From Phycisphaera sp. (GTDB lineage: Bacteria > Planctomycetota > Phycisphaerae > Phycisphaerales > Phycisphaeraceae): DNA of 58,286 nucleotides. Location: NCBI GenBank assembly GCA_028285385.1, contig JANQPR010000095.1:1-58286 (forward strand), read 5' to 3'. The notes under the pieces are model-generated. The model worked only from the letters and a program-made list of their open reading frames with translations. It was not told where the DNA came from and did not search any database. This document shows positions 3,601 through 32,277 of the stretch, one piece after another (position 1 is the stretch's first letter; each line of letters begins with the position of its first letter). Both the position numbers and the translations under genes were made by a program.

Positions 3601-3683
3601 TCTCAAACCCTACGTGTTCTGTAGAGTTGGGTAGCATCTCCCAAGAATGGCGAGATGAGCCCAGCTATTGAATGGAGCAGGTG

Positions 3684-4715
3684 ATGGTTCCGTCTGTGTT
3701 TATTAGTTCGACCATCGCAGACCTTCATTATCTTCGTGATGGAGTGCGTGATGCGATCGTAGAGCTCAGTTACCGACCGGTGATGAGTGAACACGCCGAA
3801 GTGGGATACATCAACCCGACCACCGCGGCGGATTCGTGTTATCGATCCGTGAGTCAGTGTCATTTGATGGTGCTTATCATCGGACGGAGGTATGGGACGG
3901 TCGGCGACGATGGGGTTAGCGTCACGCATCGCGAGTACCGGGCGGCTAGGGCAAAGGGCATACCGATGATCACGTTCGTGGAGCCGCAGCTGCTGTCGTT
4001 TCACGAGGTTTTTGCAGTCGATCCAGATGCAAAAGTTTGGGAAAGATTTGAGGGGTTGGATAATGCCAAGATGACGTTTGCGCTGTTGACGGAGGTGCAA
4101 CGATCGGAGACATACAATGCGATGATTCCATTTGCGTCGGTTGACGATGCGAAGAAAAAGCTAAAGCTTCAAATTGCGGATTTTGTCGGGGAGCGGCTGG
4201 CGACCGGCGCTGACGGTCTCAACGAGGAGATTCGGGACGTTCTCGCGGAAGTCAAGACGATCCGGAACTTGCTGTCAGAAGAGCAAAAAAAACGCGAGCC
4301 GGCGTCGGGCGACTTGAGCACTCGGTATCTTGTGGCAGCACGTTTTTTGCTTAGCAAGCGAGCTGAACTGTACCGGGACTTCCTTGAAGCCGTGTTTCGG
4401 AGTTTTGATGTGGCGCTGGGTCATGTGGCAAACGGCGGTAGCCTAAAGGGTTTGACTGAAGAAGCGGGTTGCAACCTGATCGTCACTGATGACATCCCCC
4501 TCATGGGGGAGGTATTGGATGAGGCGGCGTTCAAAGAGAAGGAACCGCCTAAGGTTCTAGGTTGGTACTCGGGAACCCACTACCCTTATGGGTTGGGGCA
4601 TATAAAGTGGACCTTGTGGAGCGACGGGTCGTTATACATAGGTACTAATGCGTTCGAAAAGTTCAGTGACATGCAACGAGAAATACACCGCGCGTGTTTC
4701 CCAAGCCGATCTTGA
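3684..4715 (+). CDS. DUF4062 domain protein (phage-associated cargo gene)
   Basis: 343 residues from the ATG at 3684, preferred over the ATG at 3672 because ggag lies six bases upstream. Residues about 1-100 match the DUF4062 pattern: VPSVFISSTIADL, a cysteine region, LMVLIIGRRYG, then SVTHREYRAARAKGIPMITFVE. DUF4062 is a TIR/SIR2-like Rossmann-type fold often found at the N-terminus of NTPase, signalling or defence proteins. The remaining ~240 residues include a short helical stretch (about 175-205) and a C-terminal region with no recognised family. The base composition is visibly more AT-rich than that of the host genes. The gene stops six bases before copy B of the secretin repeat, so it sits in the slot following secretin copy A. 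Function is unknown; a role in defence or superinfection exclusion is only inferred from family and position. Confidence 0.75.
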   Translation: MVPSVFISSTIADLHYLRDGVRDAIVELSYRPVMSEHAEVGYINPTTAADSCYRSVSQCHLMVLIIGRRYGTVGDDGVSVTHREYRAARAKGIPMITFVEPQLLSFHEVFAVDPDAKVWERFEGLDNAKMTFALLTEVQRSETYNAMIPFASVDDAKKKLKLQIADFVGERLATGADGLNEEIRDVLAEVKTIRNLLSEEQKKREPASGDLSTRYLVAARFLLSKRAELYRDFLEAVFRSFDVALGHVANGGSLKGLTEEAGCNLIVTDDIPLMGEVLDEAAFKEKEPPKVLGWYSGTHYPYGLGHIKWTLWSDGSLYIGTNAFEKFSDMQREIHRACFPSRS

Positions 4716-4720
4716 CTCGT

Positions 4721-5013
4721 CTACACGGCCGACCGCCACGACCGCAGCGCCACGCGGCTCTACATCGTCGTTCGCATGATCGACCCGCTGCAGGTGTCGG
4801 CGGCCGTCGCGGCCGTCCCGACCGAGATCGAACTGGCCCGCAAGTACCCGGCGTGGTCACCCGACGCGATCGACGAGTACCGATCGCACCTCATCGGCCA
4901 GGCCATCGAACAGGGCCGGTGAACGGAGCCGGGACATCCCGCCGGCCGTGCCGGTGGGTGCCCGGCGACCGGCCCGCGACGGCCCGGGTTGAGATCAACC
5001 CGGCCGCGGGCCG
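4721..5013 (+). repeat. Copy B of the secretin 3'-end repeat
   Basis: 293 bases that align without gaps to copy C (14390-14682) with only scattered substitutions. About 200 bases encode the last ~65 residues of the secretin in an intact frame (TADRHDRSATRLYIVVRMID... ending EAIEQGR, stop at 4920-4922). The rest is the conserved segment behind the gene, ending in a GC hairpin (ccgggttga - ga - tcaacccgg). There is no secretin upstream of it, so it is a truncated gene end left from a second inovirus unit. It borders the DUF4062 gene on one side and the RelA/SpoT-like gene on the other. Confidence 0.88.
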
Positions 5014-5079
5014 TCGTAGTAGGCCCTCGTTCAATCTGAACTGGAAAGTTGCACTGATGAGGATTACGCTGCCTTCGCA

Positions 5080-6114
5080 ATGGCAGACCTTAATGAAACG
5101 CTTCGAAATGAATACGTGACTAATGAGGCTCTGGCTAAAGACTTCGCGGTCGCAATAGCCGATCAGATTCAACATTTGCTTGATGAAGAAGGCCTACGGC
5201 TCGGCGTCCCAGTTCAGACTCGAGTAAAAAGCTGGAGTTCGATCGCCAAGAAACTCGAACGCAAGGCGATGTCTTTGGAGCACATTAAAGACCTGAGCGA
5301 TTTGGTTGGCGTTCGACTGATTTTCTTGTTCTCACGCGATGTCGAGAAGACGTGTCATCTTGTTTCGAAGTCATTTAAGTTGATTGAACAAGAGAATACG
5401 ATGGGTCGATTGCGTGAAGATCAGTTTGGCTACCAATCACTTCACTTGACTGTTCAGACGCCGTCAGCGTGGTTGAGAATTCCTTCGCTCAAGAGATTCG
5501 CAGGGTGGAGGGCGGAGGTGCAGATTCGTACGTTGGCACAACACATATGGGCAGATGCGTCACATCGACTTCAATACAAGAACGAAACCGGCGTTCCTTT
5601 GCCAGTTTTGCGGTCCATTTATCGTCTCTCGGCGTTACTCGAAATTGCCGACCTCGAGTTGGAAAGGGTGCTTGGCACACGTGAGGTTTACTTGCAGCAG
5701 GAAGATGACCTCCCGGCTGACGAGCCACTAAACGTCGACGCTGTAAGGATGGTTATTTCGCGAAGCTGGCCAATCGAATACCAGATGAACAATGATGACG
5801 ATAACTACGCAAGCCTACTCGAAGAGCTGCTGCACTTCGACATCAATACGGTCGCAGAGTTGCGGACACTCGTTAGTGATGGCAAAGACGCAGCGATCGC
5901 AAGAGACCAGGAGCTGGTCGCCCGGTGCCGAGATGGGAAACCAAACTGGTACGAGGGTGGAGCAGACGATTGGGATCGCGTCGTTCAAACTGGTCGACTT
6001 TACAATCAAATTGGCCTAACACGGCATGCCATATCGCATCGCGTAGGCAAGGAGAAATTCGAGGACTACTTGCAAGAGAAAGCACTCATGCAGGAGACCG
6101 CGGGTGATTCGTGA
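5080..6114 (+). CDS. RelA/SpoT-type nucleotide synthetase domain protein (phage-associated cargo gene)
   Basis: 344 residues. Residues about 35-200 match the RelA_SpoT catalytic domain: RVKSWSSIAKKLERK (R48, K50, S51), DLSDLVGVRLIF, GYQSLHLTV (G117-H122) and AEVQIRTLAQHIWAD (E146, Q148). These include the known substrate and magnesium-binding positions, so the domain looks catalytically intact. There is no HD hydrolase, TGS or ACT domain. This makes it a small alarmone synthetase-like protein; relatives act in stress signalling, as toxins (toxSAS) or as phage sensors (CapRel). The last ~145 residues are acidic and have no recognised family. No antitoxin-like neighbour is visible. The gene is AT-richer than the host genes, follows secretin repeat copy B, and its 3' end overlaps the convergent DUF2726 remnant by 29 bases. 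Confidence 0.85.
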   Translation: MADLNETLRNEYVTNEALAKDFAVAIADQIQHLLDEEGLRLGVPVQTRVKSWSSIAKKLERKAMSLEHIKDLSDLVGVRLIFLFSRDVEKTCHLVSKSFKLIEQENTMGRLREDQFGYQSLHLTVQTPSAWLRIPSLKRFAGWRAEVQIRTLAQHIWADASHRLQYKNETGVPLPVLRSIYRLSALLEIADLELERVLGTREVYLQQEDDLPADEPLNVDAVRMVISRSWPIEYQMNNDDDNYASLLEELLHFDINTVAELRTLVSDGKDAAIARDQELVARCRDGKPNWYEGGADDWDRVVQTGRLYNQIGLTRHAISHRVGKEKFEDYLQEKALMQETAGDS

Positions 6115-6594
6115 CTGCAGCGATGATGGGCTCGAAGTTGTAATCGCGTGAAGGTAAAATGCGAAGAAGTCTCAATCCAACGGAAAGGCATGCATCATTT
6201 TTGTATTGATCGGATCGTTTGGCTTTTGATGTTTTGTGTGATGTGTCGTCGAGTTCAATCGCACACAACGGTTCAAGGCCGGGCCATTGGACGATGACGA
6301 AATCGAAGTGTCGAGACTTCATCCGGCTCCGCGCGGCTTGACGCTCCTTCCAACTGCCCGAACGGCCGACGCGGATCACGTCTTCCATCCGGACCATGGC
6401 CATGACGACGAAGGGCTTCCCTCGGAGGGCTTCGACGAGCTGCTGGTAGAACCCCAGTTCGGTTGTCGTGAGCAGGCTCGTGCGGGCATAGAGATCGTCC
6501 GTGAGAGCCGCAACCTTCGGCTTGGGCTTGGGCGTAATGGATGCACCGCACCCGGAACGGGTGGTTTGCCGAATAGACGCTGGAGCAGACCCAT
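6086..6594 (-). pseudogene. DUF2726 gene, copy 1, frameshifted near its start
   Basis: This is the counterpart of the intact copy at 16006-16464. The start MGLLQRLFGKPP at 6594 matches MGLLDLIFGKPK of copy 2. After about 18 codons that frame diverges, and the conserved body (DDLYARTSLLTTTELGFYQQL... then FDFVI...CAIELDDTSH) continues in another frame from about 6530 down to the stop at 6086. No start codon exists in the body frame before internal methionines. A one-base indel is the simplest explanation; a sequencing error cannot be excluded. The DUF2726 body has the D...ExD pattern of a PD-(D/E)XK-like nuclease fold. Its 3' end overlaps the RelA/SpoT-like gene. Confidence 0.65.
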
Positions 6595-6653
6595 GCGATT
6601 CCCCGGGGGTAACACAACGAGTGCGACGACGCCGGAAGCTAACGCCTCTGCAC

Positions 6654-6863
6654 ATGCCGTGCTGTGCGTGGTGCCTGCGGTGGTTCAGCCCGACTAGGCC
6701 CGGGCATGTGTTTTGTACGCCGCGGTGCCGCCAGCGATCGTGACAGGCCGGGAGAGCCCGATACGGCGTAACGCGGGTTGTGATGCCCACGACAGCCGAA
6801 ATCCTCAAAAAAACTTTCGGCGAGGCCTACGCCCGTAAGTGTTTGCGACACCGAGGATTCTGA
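6654..6863 (+). pseudogene. Small zinc-ribbon gene, copy 1, with an internal stop
   Basis: Copy 1 of the gene at 16517-16732. It begins MPCCAWCLRWFSPT and keeps the four cysteines (CxxC, then CxxxC), but the tryptophan codon that follows CRQQS in copy 2 is TGA here (6741-6743). Behind the stop the same frame continues with RARYGVTRVVMPTTAE and ends LRHRGF at 6861-6863, closely matching copy 2. So it is either a nonsense-mutated pseudogene or a 29-residue truncated zinc ribbon. It is divergent from the DUF2726 remnant, as in copy 2. Confidence 0.65.
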
Positions 6864-13387: not shown

Positions 13388-14591
13388 GCTGGCGGGCCTG
13401 TTCCGCGGCACGCCGCTGGAGCTGATCGAGTACGTCGGCGAGCAGGGCATCGTGCTGGCACTCGGTGAAGGCGTTGAGATCTTCGACGACGAAGAGGCGG
13501 CGGCGTTGCGTGCTCAGTGGGGCCGTGGCGTGCCGGCGTCGGACGCGCTGAAGGTCATCGCCAGCCAACTCGGCGAGGGCGTCCACGTTCTGCGTCGCGG
13601 CCCGGTGGCGTACGTGCTCGGCGTCCCGGCCGACGACGACCTGATCGCCCGCGTGTTCCACGCCCCAGGCACGGACGCGGAGGAACTCCGCACGGCCGTC
13701 GAGGCGTTGGCGACCGACTCGGCCAAGGTGGCGGCGGTGGGGGACGCGCTCGTCATCCGCGACACGGTGGCGGGCATCGCCAACGTCGAGGCGTTGTTCC
13801 AGTCGCTGCAGTCGGCCCGCGGGCAGTGGTGGTGCTCGGTGCAGTTTCTCGAAGTGTCGGCGACGGGAGCCGAACGCCTCGGCATCGATTGGACGGCGTT
13901 GGCCGAGGCGGACCTGTCGCTCGTGTTTGGTGACGGGTCACTCCAGGCCGCCGAACTGTTCACGGCACGCCTACGCGGCCTCCTCGAGCTCGAGAAGAGC
14001 GAGCAGCACGTCCGGCAGGTCACGAGCGTCCGGCTGCACGTCGTAGAAGGGCGGGACGCGACGTTCCAGGTGGGCGAGACGATCCCGGTGCCGGGTCAGT
14101 CGACGCTCACCGATGGGGGGGCGTTGCGTCAGGACTTCGAGGAGATCGACACGGGCGTCCTGCTCCGTGTTGGCGTGCGCACCGAACCCGACAACCGGTT
14201 ACGGGTCCTGGTCGAACCGGAGATCTCAAGCGTCGCCGGCTTCATCGAGCAACGCCCGATCCGCACACGGCGACGGGTGCAGACCGAAGCCGTTCTCGAA
14301 CCCGGCGGGGCGTTGATCGTGGGTGGCTTCACGTCGTCGGAGTACTCTTCGGGCTCGAACGGACTCGCGGGCAAGATGTTCCGACCCGGCTACACGGCCG
14401 ACCGCCACGACCGCAGCGCCACCCGGCTGTACATCGTGGTCCGCGTGATCGACCCGCTGCAGGTGTCGGCGGCGGTCGCGGCCGTCCCGACCGAGATCGA
14501 GTTGGCCCGCAAGTTTCCTGCGTGGTCCCCCGACGCGATCGACGAGTACCGATCGCACCTGATCGGCGAGGCGATCGAACAGGGCCGGTGA
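13215..14591 (+). CDS. Phage secretin (inovirus pIV-like outer-membrane channel)
   Basis: 458 residues from a GTG at 13215, which gives a short signal peptide with a possible lipobox (AATLSPGC); an ATG at 13152 in the same frame is an alternative. The gene overlaps the Zot gene by about 170 bases. An N-domain region (ELAGLFRGTPLELIEYVGEQ...) precedes the C-terminal secretin domain, seen as VRLHVVEGRDATFQVGETIPVPGQ, FEEIDTGVLLRVGVR and LRVLVEPEIS. Secretins form the outer-membrane pore for virion exit, which fits a diderm host. Its last ~200 bases are repeated at 3349-3600 and 4721-5013. The cargo gene follows behind the conserved hairpin. Confidence 0.82.
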   Translation: MTCGVGVLAATLSPGCSRPSLLPESSRSVESSLPEQRLPRLPRGRQSTTLPDHGPEVELAGLFRGTPLELIEYVGEQGIVLALGEGVEIFDDEEAAALRAQWGRGVPASDALKVIASQLGEGVHVLRRGPVAYVLGVPADDDLIARVFHAPGTDAEELRTAVEALATDSAKVAAVGDALVIRDTVAGIANVEALFQSLQSARGQWWCSVQFLEVSATGAERLGIDWTALAEADLSLVFGDGSLQAAELFTARLRGLLELEKSEQHVRQVTSVRLHVVEGRDATFQVGETIPVPGQSTLTDGGALRQDFEEIDTGVLLRVGVRTEPDNRLRVLVEPEISSVAGFIEQRPIRTRRRVQTEAVLEPGGALIVGGFTSSEYSSGSNGLAGKMFRPGYTADRHDRSATRLYIVVRVIDPLQVSAAVAAVPTEIELARKFPAWSPDAIDEYRSHLIGEAIEQGR

Positions 14592-14682
14592 ACGTAGCCG
14601 GGACATCCCGCCGGCTGTGCCGGTGGGTGCCCGGCGACCGGCCCGCGACCGGCCGGGTTGAGATCAACCCGGCCGCGGGCCG
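14390..14682 (+). repeat. Copy C of the secretin 3'-end repeat (end of the intact gene plus hairpin)
   Basis: 293 bases, gapless against copy B. It comprises the last 202 bases of the intact secretin gene and 91 bases behind it. The non-coding part ends in an inverted repeat with 11-base arms (ggccgggttga and tcaacccggcc, two bases between). The hairpin may stop transcription, although no T-run follows, or may be a recombination or replication structure. Conservation of the non-coding part in copies B and C, with unrelated genes behind them, marks the border of the cargo slot. Confidence 0.88.
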
Positions 14683-14752
14683 AAGAAACCTAGACAGGCC
14701 GAAACAGTGAAACGAAGCCAACTGGCGTAAGGACTAGAATCATGGGCACGCT

Positions 14753-15946
14753 ATGTCGGGACGAATAAATGTTACGGGGTACATCAAAATGGCAGACAGT
14801 CAGTCCAATACTCAGGCACAAATGGTGAAGTTTGTCCGGGAACGTGATTATGAGATGAAATGCGATCTGGGGTCGGGGTCGACCGGTAAGACTGTCTTGC
14901 TTTTCGACGACCAGATAGATGAGCACTTCGTATGCAAGAAGTACGCGCCACAATGGAAGACACAACAGAAAGAGTTGTATGAGAATTTTGTGCGGGAGAT
15001 CAAGCTATTGCACCGGGTGTTTCATGAGAACGTTGTCCGGGTATTTAACTACTATCTTTACCCGGCTCAGTACGTTGGCTACATATTGATGGAGTACGTC
15101 GATGGGCCGGACGTCGAAGAGTACATTGAGCAGCATCCCGAGAACATCAACGACGTGTTTCTGCAGGTGGTGGAAGGATTCGCGTACCTCGCAGAACGCG
15201 CCATCTTGCACCGCGATATTCGTCCGCAGAACATTCTCGTTGGACAGGATTCGAAAGTTAAGATTATAGACTTGGGGTTTGGGAAGCGCATCGAGATCTC
15301 AGGTGATTTCGACAAGAGTGTCGCGTTGAACTGGTGGTGTGAGACGCCGGCCGAATTCTCGGAGAAGCGGTACGACTTTCGAACAGAGGTTTACTTTGTT
15401 GGCAAGCTCTTCCAAAAGCTCATCGAGAACAATGGCATCTTACACTTCAAGTATCCGCTGGTGCTTGGTGAAATGTGTGATCACGAACCTGAAAAACGAG
15501 TTGGCACGTTCGAGGAGGTTCGCCGGCGAATCCGAAACGACAAGTTCCCTGAGTTCGAATTTTCGGATTCAGAACGGAAAGCGTATCAGGTATTCGTCGA
15601 ACAAGTCTGCGATTGTCTTGTAACGATTGACAGGACGGCCAAATTCCAAACGGACGAAGAAATAGCAGTCCGAAAACTCGAAGCGGTTTATAGAAGCGGA
15701 ATGTTGTCTGAGTTCGTGCCGAGAGTAGTGCTAGTCTTAGCTTGCTTCATAAACGGTACTTTCAGCTATCGACGAGATGGACAGATTGAGGTGAGTGCGC
15801 TTAAGAGCTTCCTTTCACTGTTTTCACAAGTTACAGAAGAGAGGCGGGGAATTGTATTCGCCAATCTATACACCAGACTCGGTGGAATCGAGCGGACGAC
15901 TCGGAAAGAACCACCGCCGATTGACGAAGATCAAGTACCCTTCTAG
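14753..15946 (+). CDS. Serine/threonine protein kinase-like protein (phage cargo gene)
   Basis: 397 residues; AT-richer than the phage core and the host. An N-terminal Hanks-type kinase domain is visible: glycine loop LGSGSTGKTVL (about 42-52), lysine in FVCKKY (K62), hinge LMEYVDGPD, catalytic loop HRDIRPQN (H153, D155, N160), DLG in place of DFG (D173) and YDFRTEVYFVGKLF. All key catalytic positions are kept, so activity is likely. The ~130 residues behind the kinase domain have no recognised family. There is no membrane segment, unlike PASTA kinases. In-frame methionines at 14789 and 14822 are alternative starts. It occupies the same slot as the DUF4062 and RelA/SpoT-like genes. Kinases in phages and defence islands can mediate abortive infection or exclusion, but the role here is inferred. 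Confidence 0.8.
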   Translation: MSGRINVTGYIKMADSQSNTQAQMVKFVRERDYEMKCDLGSGSTGKTVLLFDDQIDEHFVCKKYAPQWKTQQKELYENFVREIKLLHRVFHENVVRVFNYYLYPAQYVGYILMEYVDGPDVEEYIEQHPENINDVFLQVVEGFAYLAERAILHRDIRPQNILVGQDSKVKIIDLGFGKRIEISGDFDKSVALNWWCETPAEFSEKRYDFRTEVYFVGKLFQKLIENNGILHFKYPLVLGEMCDHEPEKRVGTFEEVRRRIRNDKFPEFEFSDSERKAYQVFVEQVCDCLVTIDRTAKFQTDEEIAVRKLEAVYRSGMLSEFVPRVVLVLACFINGTFSYRRDGQIEVSALKSFLSLFSQVTEERRGIVFANLYTRLGGIERTTRKEPPPIDEDQVPF

Positions 15947-16005
15947 GCGGGCCGGTACAGAGTTCTGGGCGTACAAGAACTCAGGCGGGAACAGACGGTC
16001 AGGGC

Positions 16006-16464
16006 TTACGCATAGTTTAAATGAGTGAAGATTTGAGTGAAGTTGTACCGTCGTGACGGTTGAAACCGGTGAATAGGCAAACCGACGTTGGCACAGGCCG
16101 TGCTTTTATAAGCGTCGGAACTAATGGCTTTCTTGCGTGTGTGTGAGGAATCATCGAGTTCGATCACACACGACGGCTTGAGGTCTGGCCACTCAGCTAT
16201 GACGAAATCGAAGTGTCGCGACTTCAGCCGGCTCCGTGCGGCCTGACGATCTTTCCAACTGTCCGAACGGCCGACGCGGATGACGTCTTCCATCCGGACC
16301 ATCACCATGACGACGACGGGCTTCCCTCGGAGGGCTTCGACGAGCTGCTGATAAAACCGAAGCTCGGTGTCGGTCAGGAGGCTCTTTCGAGCGTACAGGT
16401 TGTCGGTGTGAGCCGGTGCAGGTGGGGCTTTCGGCTTGCCGAAGATGAGGTCGAGCAGACCCAT
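16006..16464 (-). CDS. DUF2726 protein, copy 2 (PD-(D/E)XK-like nuclease fold)
   Basis: 152 residues from the ATG at 16464 (MGLLDLIFGKPK), with gggga upstream. The DUF2726 domain covers about residues 25-150: LTDTELRFYQQLVEAL, VRMEDVIRV, then SRHFDFVIAEW and CVIELDDSSH, and finally the IHRFQPSRRY region. The D...ExD arrangement and predicted fold resemble PD-(D/E)XK nucleases, although the lysine of the motif is not where it is usually found. A copy, now frameshifted, lies at 6086-6594 in the same place relative to the cargo gene, so it belongs to the phage module rather than to the host. It faces the cargo kinase gene and is divergent from the zinc-ribbon gene. Confidence 0.8.
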   Translation of the reverse strand: MGLLDLIFGKPKAPPAPAHTDNLYARKSLLTDTELRFYQQLVEALRGKPVVVMVMVRMEDVIRVGRSDSWKDRQAARSRLKSRHFDFVIAEWPDLKPSCVIELDDSSHTRKKAISSDAYKSTACANVGLPIHRFQPSRRYNFTQIFTHLNYA

Positions 16465-16516
16465 TCGTTTCCCCGGGGGTTCAGTGAAAAAGCGACGGAA
16501 GTTCGGCCCGCTGGTG

Positions 16517-16732
16517 ATGCCGTGTTGCGCGTGGTGCCTGACCTGGTTCACGCCGACGCGACGCGGCCATCATTTCTGCTCGGCGTCCTGCCGTCAACAG
16601 TCGTGGCGGTCCGGGAGGGCCCGATACGGTGTAACGCGAGTCGTTGTGCCTACGACGGCGGAAATTCTGAAAAAAACTTTCGGAGTCGCGTTTGCCCGTA
16701 AATGCCTGAGGCATCAGGGGTTCGATAACTGA
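16517..16732 (+). CDS. Small zinc-ribbon protein, copy 2 (intact)
   Basis: 71 residues from the ATG at 16517; an upstream in-frame ATG at 16436 would overlap the DUF2726 gene. The peptide has CxxC (C4, C7) and CxxxC (C21, C25) in MPCCAWCLTWFTPT...HHFCSASC, followed by a basic stretch and the conserved tail VPTTAEILKKTFG...RKCLRHQG. This suggests a small zinc-binding nucleic-acid protein. It is divergent from DUF2726 with 52 bases between starts, a pairing repeated at 6594/6654. The stop lies four bases before the dif-like site, so it is the last gene of the phage unit. Confidence 0.65.
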   Translation: MPCCAWCLTWFTPTRRGHHFCSASCRQQSWRSGRARYGVTRVVVPTTAEILKKTFGVAFARKCLRHQGFDN

Positions 16733-28466: not shown

Positions 28467-29225
28467 TTATCGCTTGTGCTCCGGGCTCTGGCAGCCCGCG
28501 TGGCAGCCGGCATCCCACGCGTCGGGCTGGTTGCCGTGCGCGGGGATGCCGCCCTGATCCTTGAGCATCCGCGCCAAGTGCAGGCAGTTCCACACAAGGA
28601 ACGTCGTGTTGCGGTTGGTGAAGTCGTTCTCCGGACCGCCGGAGCCTTCGTCGCGGTAACTGGGACCCGGCCCGGCCTCGCCCATCCAACCCGCGTCCGC
28701 TTGGGGCGGGACCGTGTACCCGATGTGCGACAGGCTGAAGAGGATGTTCATCGCGCAGTGCTTGACGCCGTCCTCGTTGCCGGTGATCAGCGTCGCGCCG
28801 ACCTTGCCGTAGTCGCGGTACTGCCCCTTCTCGTTGAAGCTGTGCGTGTAGCCGTACATGCGTTCGAGCACGCGGTTGCACACCGACGACTTCTCGCCCA
28901 GCCAGACGGACGTGCAGAGGATCAGGATGTCGCAGGCATCCACCTCCTTCTGGAGCTGCGGCCAGTCGTCGCGGCCCCACTCGTCGGTCTCGGCCATATC
29001 CTGCCCAAGCCCCGCCGCGATCTCGTAATCGACCGGCCGGATGTGCTTGTGCGACACGCCGTTGGCGTCCAGGATCTGCTGTGCCACACCGATCAGCCCT
29101 TCGGTGTGCGAGAGCACGGGCGTCCGGTTCAGCGTGCAGTTCAGGAACAGCACCTTCAGGTCGTCGTACTTCGCCGGGGCAACGGAGCACTGCTGGGCGG
29201 TCATGTTGGCGAGCTGTTCGGACAT
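28467..29225 (-). CDS. Flavodoxin-fold NAD(P)H-dependent oxidoreductase
   Basis: 252 residues from the ATG at 29225. The pattern VLFLNCTLNRTPVLSHTEGL and later CDILILCTSVWLGEKSSV matches the FMN-binding loops of NADPH-dependent FMN reductase/WrbA-like proteins. It ends with a His/Cys-rich tail (DAGCHAGCQSPEHKR) that could bind a metal. The physiological electron acceptor is unknown. It is convergent with the SpoIIE gene (15 bases apart) and divergent from coaE. Confidence 0.75.
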   Translation of the reverse strand: MSEQLANMTAQQCSVAPAKYDDLKVLFLNCTLNRTPVLSHTEGLIGVAQQILDANGVSHKHIRPVDYEIAAGLGQDMAETDEWGRDDWPQLQKEVDACDILILCTSVWLGEKSSVCNRVLERMYGYTHSFNEKGQYRDYGKVGATLITGNEDGVKHCAMNILFSLSHIGYTVPPQADAGWMGEAGPGPSYRDEGSGGPENDFTNRNTTFLVWNCLHLARMLKDQGGIPAHGNQPDAWDAGCHAGCQSPEHKR

Positions 29226-29341
29226 CGTTTCCCTCGCTGGGGGACGCGGACACGCGCTAAACCGAGAAAGTACCACACCACCCGGGTACGTTTCACGGCC
29301 ACAGTCAAAGCCCCGCTACAGTCCTCCGCCCGGCACCCGTT

Positions 29342-30334
29342 ATGACCACCGAACTCGTCTTCGTCTACAACGCGGACTCCGGAACGGTGAACGCGCTCAT
29401 CGACGCGGCGCACAAGGCCGTGTCGCCCGGCACGTACGGCTGCTCGCTGTGCAGGCTCACGCACGGTGTCGTCGGCGAGAAAACCGAGTGGCGCGCGTTC
29501 GTGGAAGGGCTTGGCGTGAAGGCGACGTTCCTCCACCGGGACGAAGCGACCACCCGATTCGGCGACGCGGTGAGCGGCGTGGACTGGCCGGCGGTACTGC
29601 GCGTAAACCCACGAACGCCGACCGCGGCGCCGCTCCCGCGCCTGTGGATCGACAAGCCCGGACTCGACGCGTGCGTGACCTTCGAAGCCCTGCAAGCGTT
29701 GGTCCGACGCCGGCTCAACCGTAAACCGGTGCTCGGCCTCAGCGGCGCGCCGGGCTCGGGGAAGTCGACCGCCGCGGCACTGCTCGCCGATCGCGGCGGC
29801 GCGGTCATCGACGCCGACGCCCTGGCCCACGCGAGCTTCGACGAACCGGCCGTGCGCGACGCGATCCGCGATGCCTTTGGCGATGGCGTGTTCCACGACG
29901 ACGGCCGCCCCGACCGAAAGGCCCTCGCGGCGCTCGTGTTCGACAACCCCGACGCCAAGGCCCGGCTCGAAGCGATCGTCCACCCTCGCGTCGCCGCCGG
30001 CCGTGAACGCCTCCACGAACGCTTCGCCGACGACCCGGCCGTCCGCTTCGTCGTCGAGGACTGCCCGTTGCTCATCGAGACCGCCCTGCACGACGCGTGC
30101 GACTTCGTCCTGCTCGTCGACGCCCCGCGCGACGTTCGCCAACAGCGCCTCGCCGCCTCGCGCGGGTGGGACGACGCCGAGCTCACGCGCCGGGAGCAGA
30201 ACCAGTTGCCCTTCGAGCAGCGCCGCCCCCACGCCGACGCCGTCCTCGACAACACCGGCGACCGCAACGATTTAGCGACGCAGATCGACGCCGCACTCCA
30301 ACAGTTCGGTTTGCTGGCGGTGCACGAGCCGTAG
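29342..30334 (+). CDS. coaE: Dephospho-CoA kinase with an extra N-terminal domain
   Basis: 330 residues. The C-terminal ~205 residues are dephospho-CoA kinase, which makes CoA in its last step: Walker A GAPGSGKST (K141), IDADALAHASFDEP, VHPRVAAGRERLHERF, EDCPLLIETALHDACDFVLLVDAP and the lid LAASRGWDDAEL. Residues 1-115 are a separate domain (LVFVYNADSGTVNALIDAAHK...CSLCRLTHG, with C34 and C37) known to me as a stand-alone small protein in other bacteria. The fusion is unusual. The ordinary CoaE length is about 200 residues. It is divergent from the flavoprotein gene. Confidence 0.85.
   Translation: MTTELVFVYNADSGTVNALIDAAHKAVSPGTYGCSLCRLTHGVVGEKTEWRAFVEGLGVKATFLHRDEATTRFGDAVSGVDWPAVLRVNPRTPTAAPLPRLWIDKPGLDACVTFEALQALVRRRLNRKPVLGLSGAPGSGKSTAAALLADRGGAVIDADALAHASFDEPAVRDAIRDAFGDGVFHDDGRPDRKALAALVFDNPDAKARLEAIVHPRVAAGRERLHERFADDPAVRFVVEDCPLLIETALHDACDFVLLVDAPRDVRQQRLAASRGWDDAELTRREQNQLPFEQRRPHADAVLDNTGDRNDLATQIDAALQQFGLLAVHEP

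Positions 30335-30687: not shown

Positions 30688-32277
<1,590 letters not shown>

Follow-up and report, generated by a model that had tools for sequence, protein, structure and literature searches.

The window analysed here, a 58,286-nucleotide stretch of a Phycisphaera sp. genome, carries a gene in which a predicted thioredoxin-like domain of an uncharacterised family precedes a complete dephospho-CoA kinase (CoaE) in a single reading frame. The fusion looks real, while the role of its front part is a guess. The architecture is new: a literature search on dephospho-CoA kinase, coaE and Planctomycetes returned no report of such a fusion, and we know of no report of a CoaE joined to a front domain with a CxLC motif.

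The fused gene and its kinase half

The gene and its surroundings have the following features:

29342..30334, plus strand: fused gene, 330 aa, predicted thioredoxin-like domain and CoaE; same fusion in a second genome of the genus (G242)
29342..29707, plus strand: N-terminal domain of an uncharacterised family, ending at about residue 122, predicted thioredoxin-like (profile match, AlphaFold)
29441..29452, plus strand: CxxC motif, C34-S-L-C37; both cysteines conserved in the family
29534..29536, plus strand: H65, possible partner of the cysteine pair; 62/63 rows
29588..29590, plus strand: P83, just ahead of the third predicted strand (residues 84-88); 63/63 rows
29729..30289, plus strand: dephospho-CoA kinase domain, residues 130-316 (PF01121, TIGR00152)
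29744..29767, plus strand: P-loop GAPGSGKS, residues 135-142, read from the translation
29810..29818, plus strand: DxD motif of CoaE, D157-A-D159, read from the translation
30688..32277, plus strand: rho, the gene after the fusion; coaE-rho order kept in the family
28467..29276, minus strand: divergent upstream gene for an FMN_red-type flavoprotein (PF03358, 28.5 bits, cut-off 24)

Elsewhere in the window, a low-GC stretch at 3672-6808 (GC 0.54 at 4001-6000) holds DUF4062, RelA_SpoT and DUF2726 genes, and its RelA_SpoT protein matches PADLOC PDC-S33. A second such stretch at 14753-16551 (0.56 at 14001-16000) holds a protein kinase, whose best PADLOC match is mad6, and another DUF2726 gene; the two may be related islands.

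The open reading frame and its translation run without interruption from the ATG at 29342 to the TAG at 30334, a total of 330 codons, and the gene product would be a single two-domain protein. A first-pass annotation of this DNA had proposed an extra domain with a CxxC motif ahead of CoaE. Both elements are present, as a front part without a Pfam model in frame with a complete CoaE, and as C34-S-L-C37, which is conserved across the family alignment. The domain measures about 122 residues rather than the approximately 115 first given.

The same two-domain frame occurs in a 327-aa gene of a genus-mate, Phycisphaerae bacterium Co_bin.173 (G242, loci L003/L091), and the fusion is therefore not an assembly error. 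The two proteins are 66.7% identical over 198 residues of the CoaE half and 49.1% identical over 114 residues of the front half. Nucleotide changes between the two genes favour the third codon position both in the front part (45/46/66 changes at positions one to three of 117 codons) and in CoaE (55/45/80 of 203 codons). This bias shows coding constraint on the front half, which also retains the invariant residues of its family in both genes.

The first-pass annotation had named a start codon near residue 120 as the case against the fusion; CoaE would then be made from that start, with the front part normally unattached. The window gene does have GTG112, TTG120 and GTG130 in frame, and TTG120 and GTG130 would suit such a start. 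However, these candidates are not shared by G242, which has GTG113 and then no alternative before residue 155, and neither gene contains an in-frame ATG after codon 1. No stop separates the two parts, so that every ribosome initiating at ATG1 yields the fusion protein, and the coding constraint on the front half also speaks against separate production. We regard an internal start as very improbable.

The C-terminal half matches PF01121 over residues 130-307 (139 bits, cut-off 27) in the Pfam search and TIGR00152 over residues 130-316 (113.9 bits, cut-off 65.55) in the NCBIfam search, and its P-loop and DAD motif (157-159) are intact. The fused gene is the sole CoaE match in the window's genome, which is 96.9% complete, and the CoA pathway presumably depends on it. 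As the sole copy, the C-terminal half is presumably the genome's one dephospho-CoA kinase, and would phosphorylate dephospho-CoA to CoA.

Wider literature searches brought up a paper on CoaE-UPF0157 (PMC2765170), which describes other CoaE fusions, and papers on CoAlation. CoaE of M. tuberculosis also carries an extra domain of unknown function, UPF0157, but that domain is C-terminal and belongs to another family, whereas the extra domain of the window protein is N-terminal. The eukaryotic CoA synthase CoaD-CoaE resembles the window protein in that CoaE forms the C-terminal part; its partner, however, is an enzyme of the CoA pathway (PMC2765170). Pfam models gave no match to UPF0157 behind CoaE in the fused protein, where CoaE extends almost to the C-terminus.

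The front-domain family and its predicted fold

Searched alone, the front part matches nothing in Pfam, NCBIfam or PHROGs at E<=1. A profile of 63 rows, the window's own row among them, finds it at 29345-29722 with a score well outside chance (E 4.5e-40), and the same profile matches an independent stand-alone gene in G393, a genome from another genus of the window's family (E 3.7e-43). Two motif patterns, run in one scan against 84,980 species genomes, yielded 453 relatives. The best 80 were retained and come from Gammaproteobacteria, Acidobacteriota, Chlorobiota, Chloroflexota, Bacteroidota, archaea and others. CxLC is present in all 80 of these best 80 of 453, 78 of them having been picked by a regular expression that itself requires CxLC. 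The other two, L082 and L100, were read by eye, and lie outside the 78-locus set used below because the expression missed both.

The window's front domain has the family's invariant residues F7, Y9, D21, H24, K25, P29, Y32, C34, L36, C37, W50 and P83. Both cysteines occur in 63/63 aligned rows, and C34, C37, H24 and H65 as a group are conserved in 62-63 of the 63. The motif scan preselected parts of HK..P.TY and VYNADSG, so the invariance of these segments is partly built in, yet W50, H65 and P83 lie outside the scan motifs and also hold in 62-63/63 rows.

The relatives had been described as stand-alone small proteins of unknown function, and this description fits: none of ten members compared with Pfam, or of five compared with NCBIfam, passed a curated cut-off, and RefSeq names WP_216644828.1 a "hypothetical protein". 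The stand-alone members, of which this protein is an example, share the window's domain from end to end (LxFVYNADSG...HKxxSPxTYxCxLC...W...FLHRDE...P) but are only about 115-130 aa long and, unlike the window protein, have no CoaE attached. One match was found among plasmid records, annotated as a "hypothetical protein". Four stretches of viral contigs matched a pattern and none of them encodes a relative, and the front family was not matched in phage records.

Within the window's taxonomic family (f1), CoaE is present in 48 of 51 genomes and the front family in five: the window's genome, G242, G393, G409 and G185. The stand-alone gene of G393 is intact, and the copy in G185 is divergent, without H24, K25 and C37. 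G409 has a 66-aa remnant of a stand-alone gene with an internal deletion (L134:4632-4832). The front family was found in 6/392 genomes drawn from the phylum, 6/301 from the order and 5/397 from the class (the draws overlap), and no further CoaE fusion was seen in these draws. Other fusions of the domain, which it had been suggested at the outset to look for, were confirmed at two of the 80 loci (best 80 of 453): the CoaE fusion of G242 and a TIGR04282 fusion in Halochromatium salexigens considered below.

Several candidates were set aside. Long open frames at L057, L099, L096, L117, L103, L065 and L068 have upstream parts that look non-coding by eye, and among such long frames L105 alone was confirmed as a further fusion. 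Long CoaE frames also occur in G426 (328 aa) and G356 (752 aa), but neither contains a front-family domain. DCC1-like proteins (PF04134) were considered as a parent of the front domain by aligning 20 members from 20 relatives and comparing them with the front family; hhalign gave a probability of 2.2 and aligned only eight columns around CxLC. Separately, a stand-alone gene in G653 (L142:6578-7325) overlaps the end of a ZIP zinc-transporter gene, a possible metal hint.

AlphaFold models of the window's front domain (pLDDT 84.1, pTM 0.78) and of a member from Geobacteraceae (pLDDT 81.4, pTM 0.73) have the same element order, strand-helix-(helices)-strand-helix-strand-strand-helix. For both models, thioredoxin-fold proteins make up nearly the whole of the match lists from VIA-align and Foldseek. 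Both VIA-align lists are headed by S. aureus thioredoxin 2 (4ruv), with Z 7.3 (rmsd 2.9 over 89 residues) for the window's domain and Z 7.2 (rmsd 3.1 over 87 residues) for the second model; a Z under 8, as even the best of these is, may reflect only a common arrangement. With the second model, Foldseek gave a probability of 0.99 for 3vfi and 4ruv, and E-values were never below 0.016. When the family profile was run against the sequences of solved structures, nothing credible came up (best E 1.3). Confidence is low at residues 11-30 of the window model and 19-33 of the second, next to the CxxC. Overall, a thioredoxin-like fold is probable but falls short of proof.

Thioredoxins have a cis-proline just before the third strand, and in a classical thioredoxin the CxxC opens helix 1, with strand 1 immediately ahead of it. 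The window domain resembles 4ruv in its predicted order of strands and helices, its CxxC and its proline ahead of predicted strand 3, but the two are 11% identical and, in the model of the window domain, a helix is inserted after strand 1, ahead of the CxxC. In the window model, strand 1 spans residues 4-9, a helix residues 13-24 and the CxxC residues 34-37, about 24 residues past the strand. By the modelled placement of its CxxC the front domain is therefore not a classical thioredoxin, the cysteine pair being displaced in the model behind an extra helix.

Gene neighbourhoods and the origin of the fusion

Flanks of up to 4 kb on each side, several of them shorter, were fetched for the 80 loci (best 80 of 453). 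CoaE occurs within them at only one locus, L091, which is the genus-mate. A TIGR04283-like gene (>=82 bits) is found near the front family at 16/78 loci and a TIGR04282 gene at 8/78. At E<=1e-6, TIGR04283 matches 26/78 loci, but ten of these score <=46 bits and were left out of the count; one of the ten, L074, proved on scanning to be a generic glycosyltransferase. Eight of the 16 TIGR04283-like genes were scanned with NCBIfam, and six are above the cut-off, with L096 and L057 just below. Other neighbours include ArsM-like methyltransferases and sterol-desaturase-type genes. The "arsenosugar" label on the neighbour family is NCBI's, and the literature listings searched held no arsenosugar paper on this family. 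The window's own genome has no TIGR04283 match above the cut-off (best 64.5 bits against 182).

In Halochromatium salexigens (L105:1553-3148, NZ_NHSF01000027.1, a single 3.5-kb contig), a front-family domain is fused in one frame behind a TIGR04282 transferase scoring 192.5 bits against a cut-off of 134. The domain is shared with the window protein, but here it is C-terminal and its partner is TIGR04282, whereas in the window it is N-terminal and its partner is CoaE. The neighbours and this fusion argue that the front family is not generally tied to CoA. The link to CoA metabolism that had been predicted from the fusion is weakened as a general one, CoaE being near 1/80 loci (best 80 of 453); as a local link it has the coaE locus of G393 in its favour. 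The family's general role probably lies outside CoA synthesis, with the CoaE fusion a local event.

At that locus, a stand-alone front-family gene, a peptidase-like gene, coaE and rho follow each other in the same orientation, with an overlap of 23 bases between the first two genes. The order in G242 is peptidase-like gene, fusion, rho, and in the window it is FMN_red gene (opposite strand), fusion, rho. Rho follows coaE in nearly all the family f1 loci examined. At least nine genomes besides G242 (L020, L027/L137, L028, L031, L034, L036, L040, L043, L136) have a homologue of the G393 peptidase-like gene immediately ahead of coaE and in its orientation, a lower bound since the flanks are just 1.5 kb for most loci. 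As only one gene separates the stand-alone gene from the downstream coaE-rho pair in G393, which belongs to a related genus, the fusion probably arose by a local event at the coaE locus. A tree of the front family (69 rows) is poorly resolved, and the window and G242 group at only 55/33; a tree constrained to keep the window, G242 and G393 together surpassed the result of the unconstrained search by 4.42 log units (p-AU 0.605). This weak tree is consistent with descent of the three copies from one copy in the family.

The FMN_red-type protein of the window (28467-29276) is 88.5% identical to its counterpart in G393 (L131:3411-4166), compared with 83.5% for Rho and 47% for CoaE, and the position of its gene has shifted around coaE-rho between the two genomes.

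These neighbourhoods bear on whether the front domain acts on CoA at all. It may simply keep an ancestral job outside CoA metabolism, in a bifunctional protein without cross-talk whose halves were joined only because their genes had become neighbours. The G393 gene order, the absence of CoaE near 79/80 loci (best 80 of 453), the TIGR04283-like and TIGR04282 associations and the Halochromatium fusion all favour such a bystander, whereas the short linker, the presumably essential enzyme and the persistence of the fusion in a pair of genomes whose versions of this protein share about 50-67% identity do not. We consider this a credible possibility, nearly as likely as the explanation preferred below.

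Possible roles of the front domain

We tentatively favour a reading in which the front domain serves as an active thiol module, tethered to CoaE, that acts either on the kinase or on the thiol of CoA. A predicted thioredoxin-fold domain with its own conserved cysteine pair, C34 and C37, would have been joined to CoaE when the peptidase-coaE-rho locus rearranged locally in an ancestor of the genus. Beside the kinase, this domain could sense or reset thiol state, or bind a metal or thiol ligand, and could thereby adjust CoaE or keep the dephospho-CoA/CoA thiol reduced. The invariant CxLC, the proline before strand 3 and the thioredoxin element order in two models point this way, as do the sole CoaE copy scoring above its cut-offs, the fusion shared with G242, the third-position bias in both halves, the G393 gene order and the tree that keeps the three copies together. 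Against it stand the fold matches, which are not strong, the CxxC behind an extra helix, the distance of the family from CoaE elsewhere, and the restriction of known fusions to two genomes of one genus.

The domain might instead only make the kinase soluble or stable, perhaps through a metal site formed from C34, C37 and H24 or H65. UPF0157 is reported to be necessary for folding of the mycobacterial CoaE (PMC2765170), and the four residues are all but invariant. However, 46 of the 48 CoaE-bearing genomes of family f1 have no such fusion, and a domain serving solubility only need not retain its family's invariant residues. A folding aid of this kind seems unlikely.

A broader version of the thiol-module reading, in which a widespread thioredoxin-like family serves as a redox switch and was captured in this genus as a built-in regulator coupling CoA supply to thiol state, is an idea we rate as rather doubtful.

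The fusion offers a handle on a conserved family, present in archaea as well as bacteria, for which neither Pfam nor NCBIfam has a model and the sources searched gave no assigned function. Should the front domain alter CoaE, CoA synthesis would have a redox input built into it; should it have no effect on CoaE, the TIGR04282 fusion of Halochromatium and the genes found around the family would point to another role for it.
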